Source: a virus. From it: DNA of 41,462 nucleotides. The position numbers and the translations under genes were made by a program. The stretch is taken from IMG/VR virus record IMGVR_UViG_3300025646_000101, positions 1 through 41,462 of that record. One strand, 5' to 3'. The notes below the pieces were generated by a model, which was not told where the DNA came from, did no database searches, and was given only the letters and a program-made list of their open reading frames with translations. Position 1 is the stretch's first letter. Each line of letters opens with the position of its first letter. Of the stretch, positions 14,110-20,397 are shown piece after piece.

Positions 14110-15174
14110 TTACTTGTCGTTTAATTTAACAAGATACTCTGCTGTTACACCATGATTAGGTTTAGCGAATAGTAACCATTGACATGGTCTACCCATTGAC
14201 GCTAATTGTTCTAATGCATAAGTGTTATAGCTTTCAGTACTTCCATTAACCCAAACTCTTATGTCATTAACATACATTGTTGTAGGTGTATGAAAGTGTC
14301 CAGCAACTGCGTAATCAAAGTCTGGCATTAAGCCTCTTGATGCTAATGCTTTCCAACCTAGTAGTTTTTTACCAAATCCATACCATGGGAAACCACCATG
14401 TCCTCTAACATTATCACCATGCCATACAAAGAACTTACATCCTTTGCCAATATCAGCAATATCAAACCAATGATTATCGCCCTCAGAATCTGGAATAGTA
14501 AATGAAATTCGTTTATCTTTTTCATATATCATATCCATTATTTTGCCTAGCATTCTGTCTGCATTAGAGTCTGGATGATAATCTTTTCTAGCACGTCCAC
14601 CTAGTGAACCGTGATTACCTATTACCCAGTGTACTTCTACTTCCACAAAGTTAGCTAGTAATATGTCAAAGAATTGTGTCAATATTCTAGGTCCATCAAT
14701 TGTTACTTGGTTATATAACGAAGCATCAATTAAATGATGTTGACCTGGGAATATAAGTTCACCTTCAACTATATCTCCAGCTGCTAGGACTACACACTTA
14801 TTAACTGGATGTGCATATCTTTGAACATTTGTCAATTCAACTATTTTATTTGCATATTCAATGACACGTTTTTCAGCTACTTTTGTGTTATAATCTGGCG
14901 TTACTTTTGCTAATTGAACATCAGATAATATTGCTACTGCTACTTCTTCGTTTTTATTTGCTTTGTGTATTGTTGGTTTAGGAATAATTGGTTTATCCCA
15001 TGTACGAAGATTTGTAGATACAGCATCATAAACTGCATTTATCATATCAGCTTTTTTATTTTTAGCTTTCTCTAATAATTTAAGAAGTTTAAGATTATCT
15101 GCTTTTAGTTCTTGTATCTTAATAGACTCAGCCTCAGCTAATAACTTTTCTATTTCGTTATTATTCTTGGGCAT
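14110..15174 (-). CDS. Calcineurin-like metallophosphoesterase
   Basis: 354 residues. The N-terminal ~45 residues form a Leu/Lys-rich coiled coil. The phosphoesterase core follows in order: LSDVQ (Asp85), GDIVEG (Asp134), GNHG (Asn187, His188), WHGDN (His252) and GHFHT (His293, His295). These are the two-metal ligands of the Mre11/calcineurin superfamily; the first motif has Gln where His is usual, so one metal site may differ. Substrate could be DNA ends or a nucleotide/phosphoprotein. It overlaps the HTH gene upstream by 14 bases, implying joint action, perhaps sequence-directed nuclease activity. That last point is inference. Confidence 0.8.
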   Translation of the reverse strand: MPKNNNEIEKLLAEAESIKIQELKADNLKLLKLLEKAKNKKADMINAVYDAVSTNLRTWDKPIIPKPTIHKANKNEEVAVAILSDVQLAKVTPDYNTKVAEKRVIEYANKIVELTNVQRYAHPVNKCVVLAAGDIVEGELIFPGQHHLIDASLYNQVTIDGPRILTQFFDILLANFVEVEVHWVIGNHGSLGGRARKDYHPDSNADRMLGKIMDMIYEKDKRISFTIPDSEGDNHWFDIADIGKGCKFFVWHGDNVRGHGGFPWYGFGKKLLGWKALASRGLMPDFDYAVAGHFHTPTTMYVNDIRVWVNGSTESYNTYALEQLASMGRPCQWLLFAKPNHGVTAEYLVKLNDK

Positions 15175-15409
15175 TATCTACTAAGTTTTGAAAGTGATTG
15201 CGAATTGCACTTTCACTTATTTTGATACCATAATGTTCTTTAAGCAATCTGCTTACAACAAATGGTTTAATTGGTCTACCAGATAGAACTCTTGATTCTA
15301 TACCATCCCAAAATGGTTTGGCTTCATCAGTTATTCTTTCTGATATACGATTAACTTTTCCTGTTTCTGCTTCAGTCAACAGTTGTTCAATATCTATCAT
15401 AGGTTTCAT
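15161..15409 (-). CDS. Small HTH-like protein paired with the phosphoesterase
   Basis: 82 residues, AAAGGAATTATA before the ATG at 15409. The C-terminal half (KPFVVSRLLKEHYGIKISESAIRNHFQNLV) has the shape of a helix-turn-helix with the recognition helix ESAIRNHF; the N-terminal half is acidic and helical. Its end overlaps the phosphoesterase start. It may guide the phosphoesterase to DNA or regulate the operon. Confidence 0.6.
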   Translation of the reverse strand: MKPMIDIEQLLTEAETGKVNRISERITDEAKPFWDGIESRVLSGRPIKPFVVSRLLKEHYGIKISESAIRNHFQNLVDNAQE

Positions 15410-15750
15410 TATAATTCCTTTCTGTTTTAATACAAGTTTTTAAATTAATAATTAATTATGTGTGCTGCCTAGCACGGTACTCACACGCTTTTCATCTTCG
15501 CATCACATCGCATTAAATTTGTTAAATATTGATTTGCTAAAACAAGGTGATGCTTGATAAACGCTTTGTTCGTAACCATGCCCGGCATGCACAAATTAGG
15601 TGTAGTGGTGTTAACTATAGGATTGTTGTTGACATGACTAGAAAACCCTTGTTCGTAATTCTCTTACGACTCTATTCCACTACGTGAACATAGCTTAACT
15701 TGTGGAAAGGAGGTCACAAGCACCATTGCTGGTTTACTATGTTCCCTACA
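15410..15750 (-). ncRNA. 341-bp gene-free stretch with several hairpins (putative structured RNA)
   Basis: No ORF of useful length on either strand. In the sense of the flanking - strand genes the transcript can form stems at 15699-15720 (CTTGTG/CACAAG), around 15577-15589 (CATGCC/GGCATG) and at 15462-15475 (GTGCT/AGCAC), and TTACGAACAA occurs twice. The loop at 15699-15720 carries ACCUCCUUUC, the anti-Shine-Dalgarno sequence of 16S rRNA. Could be an operon leader, a processed small RNA, or a spacer with an origin; I cannot tell which. Confidence 0.5.
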
Positions 15751-17274
15751 CTATACCATATTAAGTTTTATAGCATGTTCCTTTACTTCATCTATATCTT
15801 TTAGATTAATAATTTTATTACTTGTACAAATTTGCAGTACATCACGCATTAAATTCATACCACTAGAATTTTTACCATGAATACCAAATACATGCATATC
15901 TGATACCCATATTCTTCTAGGTGGTTGTGATGCTAGCCATTCTAACGCTGGACCATCTATGACATTACCACGACCTTTATGCTTGTATAAATAATTTTGA
16001 TTTACACGCATACCATTTTTCGCAATAACTCGTAAGTCACCTGTATTGTAGCTGCCATTGTACATAGCAATATTAACTGCTGGTAGCAACTGCATAATTT
16101 CTAATAAATCATTTGCACTAAAGTTCATAGAACCTGATGCATCTATCAATATAGTTCCACCTAATACATGCTGTTTTTGTTTAAATATCTTTTTGTCAAT
16201 ACAATAACGATTTATGTATTTAGGATTGTAACCAAAATCAGCTGGTCTATATTGTCTACCATTTTTTAGTCTTGCTTGTAAATTATCAGTTAATGGTGGT
16301 TTATGAATAGTCATTGTTCCCCATTTACCAATACCAGAACTAGAATTATATTGCATTTCTTCTATCAAAGATTTACGCATACGTTCTTCTAGGTCTTTAA
16401 CAGTGTCACCAACACCAGATTTAGCATCTTGATTATTAGAATTTTCTCCTGATTCTTCAAGATTGTCTTGACTTGGTTGTTGATAAATACTTTCTTCTGG
16501 TTTATCCATAAAAGTATCTAGTACTAAAGATAATTCTTCAGCAATTTTTTGTACTTTACGATAGCTAATACTAGTAGAATTATTATGTCTAACTTTTATT
16601 AATTTACTATAAAAGTGATACATTTGATTATGTGCAAATTCTAATTCCGCTTGTCTTATTTGACTGACATTCGGCTCTGTTCTGAATTTAGCCATAATTT
16701 CTTTTAATGCAATAAATTCACTAGACCATTTATGATAACTTTCATATTGGGCTCTACGATATTTATCTTTTTTATAAAAACCGTTTGATGCCTCATATGG
16801 ATTAACATATTTATGGTCTTCATCTATTTCATTTGTTTTCCACATACAAGCTAAACCGTAAAGTATTATTTCTGCTATAGAACCTTTTTCTATAAGTTGT
16901 ATCAATTTCATCCTAAACATTTCTAAACACATAGTTGGTTCATTTATGCCTAGATTATTAATATACATTAAATAATTGACACGTATTTCTTCTAGAACTT
17001 CTACAGCTTCTTTACGTGTTTGTGGTGATAATTTGCCCATGGTTTTTGGTGACCATTTAACATGACCTAATTCGTGTCTACGAACCATACGACCATGATT
17101 ACAACCACAATATTCACATTCTCTATCCAAAGGAACAGTCATTTGATAATTCAAATTATCTGTACAAGCACCTTGACCATTTAATGTTTCTCTAACTTGC
17201 CATTCTGTACCTGTAATTATTTCTGGATAGGGATATGGTTTATTCTGCATCGACTTTAGATAACTGTATTGCAT
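15751..17274 (-). CDS. VWA-domain protein with HExxH metallopeptidase-like N-terminus
   Basis: 507 residues from ATG 17274; a later ATG at 17250 (11-base overlap with the ATPase gene) is equally possible. The N-terminal part has CEYCGC (53-58) and RRHELGHVKW with HExxH at 67-71 plus VLEEIRVN (95-100) as a possible third ligand, followed by a long helical region. Residues ~260-300 are Gln/Asn/Ser-rich linker. A von Willebrand A domain begins at ~370 with the MIDAS motif DASGS (378-382). This matches the metallopeptidase-like/VWA proteins (DUF2201 style, CobT-like) that act with MoxR ATPases, and the ATPase is encoded directly upstream. The pair probably remodels or inserts metal into a target complex; the target is unknown. 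Confidence 0.8.
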   Translation of the reverse strand: MQYSYLKSMQNKPYPYPEIITGTEWQVRETLNGQGACTDNLNYQMTVPLDRECEYCGCNHGRMVRRHELGHVKWSPKTMGKLSPQTRKEAVEVLEEIRVNYLMYINNLGINEPTMCLEMFRMKLIQLIEKGSIAEIILYGLACMWKTNEIDEDHKYVNPYEASNGFYKKDKYRRAQYESYHKWSSEFIALKEIMAKFRTEPNVSQIRQAELEFAHNQMYHFYSKLIKVRHNNSTSISYRKVQKIAEELSLVLDTFMDKPEESIYQQPSQDNLEESGENSNNQDAKSGVGDTVKDLEERMRKSLIEEMQYNSSSGIGKWGTMTIHKPPLTDNLQARLKNGRQYRPADFGYNPKYINRYCIDKKIFKQKQHVLGGTILIDASGSMNFSANDLLEIMQLLPAVNIAMYNGSYNTGDLRVIAKNGMRVNQNYLYKHKGRGNVIDGPALEWLASQPPRRIWVSDMHVFGIHGKNSSGMNLMRDVLQICTSNKIINLKDIDEVKEHAIKLNMV

Positions 17275-17965
17275 CAATTAATTCTTCGGCTTTATCACCA
17301 AATACTAATTTAGCTGCAGTTTCTATATCAAAATCATTCTTTTGTAAATCAAAGAATTCTTTCCATGAACGAACAGAAACACGAGATTCTGGGTCATCAA
17401 CAATAGATGTATCATTGATAGCCTTATGCCATTCATCTGGAAATTTTGCCATAGCTTTAGGATGTATCTTGTTAATATATATTTTAACTGGGAATCTATC
17501 CTTTAATGCTAATGGCAATGATTCTGGCGGACTGTTAGTTGTAGCTACAACTTGAAAACCTGGTTCTGGTTTAACAGTTTCCTTTGTATCGTTATTGATT
17601 GTTAATTGTGCTATTTCTTGGTCATCAAGAATAGCGTGAAGAAATGTCATTGCATCTGGTGATGCATGGTCTATCTCATTAATAACAAGACGACCGCCAT
17701 TTCTCCATGACTGTATTGCAATACCGTCATGCCATTCGAATGTACCGCTACTACTTGGCTTATAAAAGCCTTCTAAGTTAGCAGAAGCAGTATCTTCTGT
17801 CATAGTTACAGAAAACACATTAGGTTCTCCGTTTATATTTAATGGTGCATTTGTTTTAATTGCACTATATGATTTACCTGTACCTGGTGGTCCGTATAAT
17901 AAAATACGTCTTGATTTACCAAGTACAGCATTTACTAATTTCCAGCAGTCTGCTGTATTTTCCAT
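17240..17965 (-). CDS. MoxR-type AAA+ ATPase
   Basis: 241 residues. Walker A GPPGTGKS (25-32), Walker B RLVINEID (92-99, with Asn in place of the usual first Asp), sensor 1 ATTN (141-144) and an arginine-finger-like DRFPV (156-160) identify a MoxR/CbbQ-class AAA+ ATPase. The short C-terminal lid is present (SVRSWKEFFDLQ). MoxR proteins work as hexamers with VWA partners to remodel or activate protein complexes (RavA/ViaA, CbbQ/CbbO, NorQ/NorD). The VWA gene overlaps this one's 3' end, giving strong context support. AGAAAGGAAA precedes the start. Confidence 0.88.
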   Translation of the reverse strand: MENTADCWKLVNAVLGKSRRILLYGPPGTGKSYSAIKTNAPLNINGEPNVFSVTMTEDTASANLEGFYKPSSSGTFEWHDGIAIQSWRNGGRLVINEIDHASPDAMTFLHAILDDQEIAQLTINNDTKETVKPEPGFQVVATTNSPPESLPLALKDRFPVKIYINKIHPKAMAKFPDEWHKAINDTSIVDDPESRVSVRSWKEFFDLQKNDFDIETAAKLVFGDKAEELIDAIQLSKVDAE

Positions 17966-17980
17966 AGTATTTCCTTTCTA

Positions 17981-19843: not shown

Positions 19844-20190
19844 TATTCTTCCTCATTAAATAAAATATTTTTCCATTGTTCTTTTGTAATACCAGTCATT
19901 GCTAGTTTTAAAGCAGAAAATGTTTTCATTAAATCATCAAAGAAAATATCATTAACTGTTTGTTCTCCTTTTTCATCAGTATGAAATGTAATGTCAAACA
20001 TATCTCCCCATGTGTGATGTACTGTAACTGTCATAATTTTTTTATTGTAATTAGGAAATTTAATTTTTAAACCACCTCTTGATTTATCGCTTTCCTTAAT
20101 TTCAATTACCTCATCACATTTGGATAAGTCAAAATTAACTTCTTCTGCATAAGCTTTGATAGCGTCTGCACTATCTGTATATTGTCGCAT
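19843..20190 (-). CDS. Unknown early protein
   Basis: 115 residues, start in a TAATG overlap at 20190, ending NEEE. Mixed alpha/beta: an N-terminal helix (DSADAIKAYAEEVNFDL), strands with RGGLKIKFPNYNKKIMTVTV and HHTWGDMFDITFHTDEKG, then a C-terminal helix MKTFSALKLAMTGIT. His-rich HHTWGD is notable but no metal site is clear. Member of the coupled micro-gene run. Confidence 0.6.
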   Translation of the reverse strand: MRQYTDSADAIKAYAEEVNFDLSKCDEVIEIKESDKSRGGLKIKFPNYNKKIMTVTVHHTWGDMFDITFHTDEKGEQTVNDIFFDDLMKTFSALKLAMTGITKEQWKNILFNEEE

Positions 20191-20384
20191 TATTCCTCCT
20201 CTTGATTTTTATAGTGTTTATTAATTTGATATTTAATTGCTTCATATTGCATTGCATTATGTTGACGAATTGTTTCTATAACTCTGTCATTGGTAGACCA
20301 ATTAAGAGTATCACGCAACATAAACAATATAATTGTACGTAATTGTTTTTTAGTTAATTGATTTAATTTTATTATTTCATCCAT
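20190..20384 (-). CDS. Small helical early protein
   Basis: 64 residues, AGAAAGGAAAATT before the ATG at 20384. Mostly helical and basic (LTKKQLRTIILFMLRDTL, RQHNAMQYEAIKYQINKH) and ends NQEEE, which is the ribosome-binding site for the next gene. Preceded by the hairpin at 20398. No family recognised. Confidence 0.6.
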   Translation of the reverse strand: MDEIIKLNQLTKKQLRTIILFMLRDTLNWSTNDRVIETIRQHNAMQYEAIKYQINKHYKNQEEE

Positions 20385-20397
20385 AATTTTCCTTTCT

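Follow-up and report, generated by a model that had tools for sequence, protein, structure and literature searches.

Our analysis has identified a conserved, structured RNA on the minus strand of an uncultured phage, in a 41,462-nucleotide stretch of DNA (IMG/VR record IMGVR_UViG_3300025646_000101, positions 1 to 41,462; hereafter the window). In the loop of its hairpin H2, CCUUUC alone is invariant, and the exact reverse complement of this sequence, GAAAGG, is enriched at the ribosome-binding sites of genes on the RNA's own strand, an association that recurs in a second phage group. On balance we favour, if narrowly, the view that this is an antisense RNA element whose CCUUUC loop pairs with the GAAAGG(A) ribosome-binding sites of early genes. 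H2 would be the recognition arm of a phage-encoded RNA of at least 155 nt, and its loop of 7-10 nt would offer CCUUUC to the GAAAGG(A) sites of early and replication genes, among them the CobS-like gene, the gene for a recombinase-like single-strand annealing protein (SSAP) and others. The open loop would pair over 6-8 bases with such a site, either in cis on its own mRNA or in trans, competing with the ribosome. As the RNA accumulated, early sites would be covered and early-gene translation would fall; in most relatives the late structural genes, with their AGGAG/GGAGGT sites, would be unaffected. From the sequence we infer that the RNA is transcribed, that its loop pairs with these sites and that pairing represses. 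The features discussed are collected in Table 1.

Table 1. Features of the RNA locus and candidate target sites in the window.
Feature	Position	Strand	Remarks and basis
Conserved RNA core (hexamer, P0, domain 1, domain 2)	15597..15755	-	A4 alignment, consensus fold, P0 analysis
Hexamer UAUAGU (TAnnnT)	15750..15755	-	Near-invariant; overlaps TAG stop of CobT-like ORF
P0 helix, 5' strand UAGG	15745..15748	-	Pairs with 15597-15600
P0 helix, 3' strand CCUA	15597..15600	-	P0 analysis
Domain 1, three-way junction	15686..15744	-	Closed by GAACAUAG (15744-15737) and CUAUGUUC (15693-15686); fold
Hairpin H1, GCAA (GNRA-type) loop	15722..15733	-	Compensatory stem changes
Hairpin H2 (found by the first-pass annotation)	15698..15721	-	6/6 pairs with double changes; covariation
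H2 loop ACCUCCUUUC	15705..15714	-	Invariant part CCUUUC, 15705-15710; loops of 47 relatives, per-position conservation
Domain 2	15600..15685	-	GGAAUAGAGU, GAGAA-loop hairpin, AAC, P3, UUAACAC; covariance model R1
Variable structured 3' region	15423..15596	-	About 65 to 670 nt from domain 2 to next gene in relatives
Predicted promoter of next gene, TTGTAT...TATAAT	15408..15435	-	Just after RNA; pattern in relatives and inspection
CobT-like ORF (phrog_33218)	15751..17277	-	RNA always downstream of its stop
82-aa ORF	15161..15409	-	Directly after RNA
phrog_284 exonuclease	14110..15174	-	Second gene after RNA
GAAAGGA upstream of 82-aa ORF, candidate target	15416..15422	-	Complement of loop
GAAAGGA site of CobS-like gene (17240-17965, -), candidate target	17972..17978	-	Kept in 30/49 relatives
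GAAAGGA site of ORF 20190-20384 (-), candidate target	20390..20396	-	Sequence match

The hairpin was noticed in a first-pass annotation of the window, and it forms on the minus strand as given there: CUUGUG (15720-15715), the loop ACCUCCUUUC (15714-15705) and CACAAG (15704-15699). An additional G.U pair (15721/15698) brings the H2 stem to seven pairs. The annotation placed the hairpin in a gene-free stretch and in the direction of flanking transcription, and this is correct on both counts: the 341 bases between the CobT-like ORF and the 82-aa ORF hold zero ORFs of at least 50 aa, and the neighbouring genes are all on the minus strand. The loop 10-mer occurs once in the window, counting both strands, where 0.04 occurrences are expected from dinucleotide content. 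Folding of the gap was compared with that of shuffled sequences and gave z -5.2 on the minus strand and z -2.4 on the plus strand. The H2 loop is predicted to be unpaired (P 0.94-1.0).

Related loci were collected from IMG/VR by three routes, yielding 16 with the 82-aa gene, 38 with the conserved RNA piece and 80 by the CobT-like protein alone; neither DNA nor protein comparison gave an isolate-phage relative of the window phage. Wherever these loci cover the stretch, the order is CobT-like stop codon, RNA, next gene. An exonuclease of the phrog_284 family comes after the RNA both in the window and in L155 and L239, two phage groups that otherwise differ. The locus is also present in L136 (PBPX01000048.1) and L137 (PAEL01000115.1), which belong to MAGs labelled Actinomycetota and Gammaproteobacteria and are probably phage contigs that were binned with their hosts or by error. 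Among relatives, H2 has 31 distinct stem sequences, with 93.5% of cells paired and a covariation of 1.07 versus 0.25 when shuffled; for this alignment each stem was joined to the invariant loop hexamer, and a one-base offset in the cutting of one stem could reduce the score but not raise it. G.U pairs occupy 25 of the 174 paired cells on the minus strand and would be C.A mismatches on the plus strand, an indication that the RNA is read from the minus strand. These results bear out the proposal of a structured minus-strand RNA, as the related phages keep the H2 stem through compensatory changes and CCUUUC without change.

Conservation of the loop itself is concentrated at its 3' end, where CCUUUC abuts the 3' stem in 46/46 sequences. 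The base before it is U in 41; farther upstream, both the sequence and the length of the loop vary. The same six bases recur in loci fetched by protein similarity only, with the loop not used in selection: 56/56 distinct phage loci have CCTTTC at most 100 nt from the CobT-like stop codon, compared with 0.37 expected by shuffling, and the four members of the protein-chosen set that lack it are distant homologues in cellular MAGs. In contrast, the anti-Shine-Dalgarno core CCUCC is kept in 5/47 representatives, roughly a tenth of the members; what is conserved in the loop is thus not a copy of the 16S tail. The first-pass annotation, which had equated the whole loop with the 16S anti-Shine-Dalgarno segment, thus met one of the few members with a full match. 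Of the loop conservation that it anticipated, the CCUUUC half is invariant and the full match is not kept; full anti-Shine-Dalgarno mimicry was rejected as a conserved feature, most members being without CCUCC.

The sites complementary to CCUUUC are distributed unevenly between strands. In the window, genes classed as early (minus strand) tend toward sites such as AGAAAGGA and those classed as late (plus strand) toward GGAGG, the classes being assigned from strand and gene content. The SSAP gene of relatives has GAAAGG in 24 of 33 cases and AGGAG or GGAGG in none, and GAAAGGAG precedes the CobS-like gene of L136, in which domain 1 stands alone. In an unbiased hexamer scan of 12 family genomes, GAAAGG ranked first by enrichment in front of ORFs on the RNA strand (68 versus 3.0 expected, 22x); it was not among the enriched hexamers listed for the opposite, structural-gene strand. 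Sites of the GAAAGG class and of the GGAGG/AGGAG class numbered 45 versus 31 on the RNA strand and 4 versus 87 on the other, with base composition nearly equal on both. By Fisher's test, the dependence of site class on strand gave p 1e-15 (p 3e-15 with starts chosen by an anti-Shine-Dalgarno sequence lacking UUUC), values that overstate independence because the family genomes share ancestry and that apply to genes called by a simple ORF rule, not a trained caller. The annotation's suggestion that the loop could capture Shine-Dalgarno sites therefore holds as a prediction, CCUUUC being complementary to the phages' own GAAAGG class.

Duplex predictions differed between loop forms. With the common loop UUCCUUUC, duplexes of -7 kcal/mol or lower were predicted at 6/18 early versus 0/16 late sites of the window, and with the window's own longer loop at 12/18 versus 7/16. 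Because this longer loop is predicted to bind both early and late sites, selectivity may be weaker in the window phage. Matched pairs of loop and CobS site were no better paired than permuted ones (p 0.64; loop variation is small), and thus there is no fine co-evolution of loop variants and CobS sites. This is to be expected if the loop serves a whole class of sites, but true co-evolution would have made the case stronger. The loop and the GAAAGG sites could each reflect the host 16S tail independently.

A related explanation is that the RNA is a general mimic of the 16S tail, whose loop binds any Shine-Dalgarno site, in host or phage mRNAs, or else a factor specific for the 16S tail, with broad interference in host translation. 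The full anti-Shine-Dalgarno loop ACCUCCUUUC of the window, the few relatives that keep CCUCC and the 7-nt piece of the 16S tail (UCCUUUC) held even by UUCCUUUC all speak for such a role. We nevertheless regard it as unlikely, given that about 90% of members lack the CCUCC core and none lacks CCUUUC, that in most sequences (33/46) the tail match extends beyond CCUUUC by one upstream base only, and that the half of the loop that is kept is the one that separates early from late phage sites.

A second phage group carries the CCUUUC element at another place in the RNA, inside P3 of domain 2 (for example UAGAU-ACUCCUUUC-AUCUA and GGCU-ACCUUUC-GGCU). On the RNA strand of these phages GAAAGG again ranks first (16 versus 0.9 expected), and it is not among the hexamers listed for the other strand. 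The signal is strongest in the L158-like phages; in the L298-like members, it is doubtful whether CCUUUC forms part of a hairpin loop. Phages that have domain 2 without a CCUUUC element served as a negative control, and in these GAAAGG was near background (10 versus 5.1, rank 190). In five control genomes the counts were 5/165 and 0/53. GAAAGG is thus enriched together with CCUUUC and not in phages with domain 2 only, so the association follows the loop and not domain 2. With more doubt than confidence, we advance a broader reading, in which two uncultured lineages would combine a private class of early ribosome-binding site, GAAAGG, with an antisense loop into an RNA-only, class-wide switch from early to late genes, and domain 2 would be a new module shared across unrelated phages. 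If true, one RNA loop would control a whole class of the phage's own genes, early/late timing would be achieved by RNA only, and the differing ribosome-binding sites of early and late genes would be explained.

The RNA in which H2 is embedded has the layout hexamer UAnnnU, P0, domain 1, domain 2 and P0'. The A4 alignment (46 sequences) and its fold gave 18 pairs, 16 with compensatory changes, the alignments of domain 1 being partly approximate. Domain 1 occurs without domain 2 in L136, of all phage-like relatives the most distant (CobT-like protein 40% identical). P0 has a covariation score of 13.1 versus a permutation maximum of 11.3, with variants such as GGUAUG/CAUACC, AGAAAG/CUUUCU and AAAUAGC/GCUAUUU in relatives; because P0 covaries, the RNA must include the 5' strand of this helix. 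The key positions of the hexamer (A 46/46, T 44/46, T 42/42) are kept independently of the place and frame of the stop codon. TG often precedes it, as in an extended -10. The hexamer is possibly a -10 element or a flank of the RNA. A reading of TAnnnT as a -10 with a start inside domain 1 was retained as no more than a possibility, since a start 7 nt downstream would cut the covarying P0.

Downstream of the RNA, most of 51 relatives have the pattern TTGnnn ... TATAATG(N6-7)ATG before the next gene. The 82-aa gene is apparently leaderless, its transcription predicted from this pattern to start at or near a second ATG, 6-7 nt past the -10. Given this promoter between the RNA and the next gene, the RNA probably either forms the 3' end of a CobS-CobT mRNA or is transcribed on its own. 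Long extensions 3' of domain 2 (L010, L019, L028, L036, L048) contain GAAAGGATAA(A)CATG and then a stop codon (TAA, TGA or TAG), that is, a Shine-Dalgarno site with a start-stop mini-ORF, and another structured stretch follows. Long-range pairing of the loop with a downstream GAAAGGA in the same RNA was considered and rejected; AAAGGA is present there in 14/51 members, mostly those with a long 3' extension.

Domain 2 is far more widespread than the rest of the RNA. It consists of P1 (in the window, 15683-15677 / 15608-15602), GAAUAGAGU, a 5-bp hairpin with a GAGAR loop, RAC, a variable P3, UUGAACAC and P1', with UUGAACAC replaced in some copies by GUGAACAC, GUUAACAC or UUUAACAC. It is found in well over 100 viral contigs of up to 347 kb, many of them uncultured and unrelated to the window phage, and 37 diverse copies have a covariation of 0.94 versus 0.24 when shuffled, with 174 double-changed cells. 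The covariance model R1 detects one copy in the window (69.6 bits, E 7e-15), one in most phages and two in two large ones. L237 (2324 and 2579) and L246 each have two copies, about 0.26 and 2.2 kb apart. In Rfam 15, neither the gathering score nor, for short stretches, a cutoff of E <= 5 to 10 gave the RNA a match beyond chance level (SNORD126, a CRISPR repeat). The motif was undetected in isolate phages, and its pattern was present in 0/398 and 0/396 sampled cellular genomes, where the covariance model matched only a phage contig in a MAG. With compensatory changes across diverse sequences, the two-domain, CobT-associated RNA and the widespread domain 2 appear to constitute a new RNA family. 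Domain 2 occurs in many other phages that have no CCUUUC loop, and it may form a module of its own that serves stability, processing or the binding of proteins. With approximately 25 unpaired nucleotides that are fixed, it lends itself to studies of antitermination, ribozyme activity and protein binding.

Copies of domain 2 are intergenic and sense to their neighbours, close past the upstream stop and often just ahead of the next start; neighbouring genes include T7-like RNA polymerases, exonucleases, a ParB-methyltransferase and an AAA ATPase. At five loci (L152, L159, L180, L234, L255) it lies at the transcript start of a T7-like RNA polymerase gene (phrog_414, 776-802 aa), with a sigma-70-like promoter immediately before it, and the gene is without a clear Shine-Dalgarno site. 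Terminator-like hairpins abut its 3' end in L226, L195, L164 and L184, the stem in L226 being an extension of P1. Such recurrence between genes of unrelated phages, just past promoters and in the sense orientation, ahead of RNA polymerase, exonuclease and methyltransferase genes and sometimes with an adjoining terminator, would fit a cis-acting transcript element centred on domain 2 (a put-like antiterminator, a ribozyme, a riboswitch or a stabiliser of the mRNA end), to which the hairpin is accessory. We consider this improbable as the function of the RNA: there is no likeness to the HK022 put RNAs and no match to an Rfam ribozyme or riboswitch even at lenient thresholds, the next gene in the window family has its own promoter past the RNA, and the association of CCUUUC with GAAAGG is left unexplained.

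A structural role for the loop is, in our estimate, a slightly poorer prospect still. CCUUUC would dock inside the RNA, either with the AAGGA stretch between P0 and P1a or with domain 2, and the GAAAGG sites would be coincidental. An invariant loop that has GNRA and GAGAR loops as neighbours, as CCUUUC does, is commonly a mark of tertiary contacts, and AAGGA, which is complementary to UCCUU, lies just 5' of domain 1 in many relatives. However, this purine stretch is absent or changed in several members that keep CCUUUC (for example L102, L112 and L130), the second group has CCUUUC elsewhere in the RNA and GAAAGG enriched again, and coincidence leaves the negative control unexplained. The annotation's alternative, a Shine-Dalgarno decoy with a GAAAGGAGGU loop on the plus strand, where a complementary hairpin exists by symmetry, is highly improbable in view of the C.A mismatches that the 25/174 G.U cells would become, the poorer plus-strand fold (z -2.4 versus -5.2), the flanking genes, all on the minus strand, and the orientation of domain 2 with its neighbours.

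We return to the favoured reading, an antisense loop directed at early ribosome-binding sites, in comparing the RNA with known systems. The HK022 putL and putR antitermination RNAs lie near promoters, between operons, with about 70 nt per unit (PMC9378689). Domain 2 is comparable in size and position; however, put RNAs have two stem-loops and domain 2 is a three-way junction. The conserved words of domain 2 do not occur together in HK022 (AF069308) and are absent from its put regions examined. Homology to put was rejected, as its sequence elements were not found. The L17 downstream element is described, in the part of the account drawn on here, as a conserved, structured 3'-UTR RNA with a proposed feedback on the upstream gene (PMC2864571). 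The phage RNA resembles it in being structured, conserved and located past the stop codon of a gene; sequence and host are unrelated, and that part of the L17 account has no loop complementary to a ribosome-binding site.

Two systems are closer in principle. The alpha-r14 or 'cuckoo' sRNAs of Rhizobiales (NfeR1, SmelA075) are bacterial trans-encoded sRNAs with at least three hairpins, each with CCUCCUCCC; their anti-Shine-Dalgarno-type loops, the predicted contact sites for target mRNAs, are conserved, and their stems vary freely (PMC3927594, PMC10746234). The phage RNA shares the conserved loop and variable stem. Unlike these sRNAs, it has one CCUUUC hairpin in a two-domain RNA, without multiple CCUCCUCCC hairpins, and its loop fits one class of ribosome-binding site of the phage's own early genes. 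The c4 antisense RNA of phages P1 and P7 (RF01695) blocks translation through complementary stretches, probably in loops, around the ribosome-binding site; it has a single target, ant, and serves immunity (PMC12197685, PMC2864571). Like c4, the RNA described here is phage-encoded and structured, with a loop complementary to phage ribosome-binding sites (CCUUUC versus GAAAGG). In contrast to c4, it gave no match to the RF01695 covariance model, and its loop fits a site class across many early genes and not one target. Because loop sequence, number of hairpins and the Rfam result differ, the phage RNA belongs to neither the alpha-r14/cuckoo sRNAs nor c4. Set against the open-access full-text literature, both the class-wide match of one phage RNA loop to a private variant of early ribosome-binding site and the domain 2 family appear to be new.
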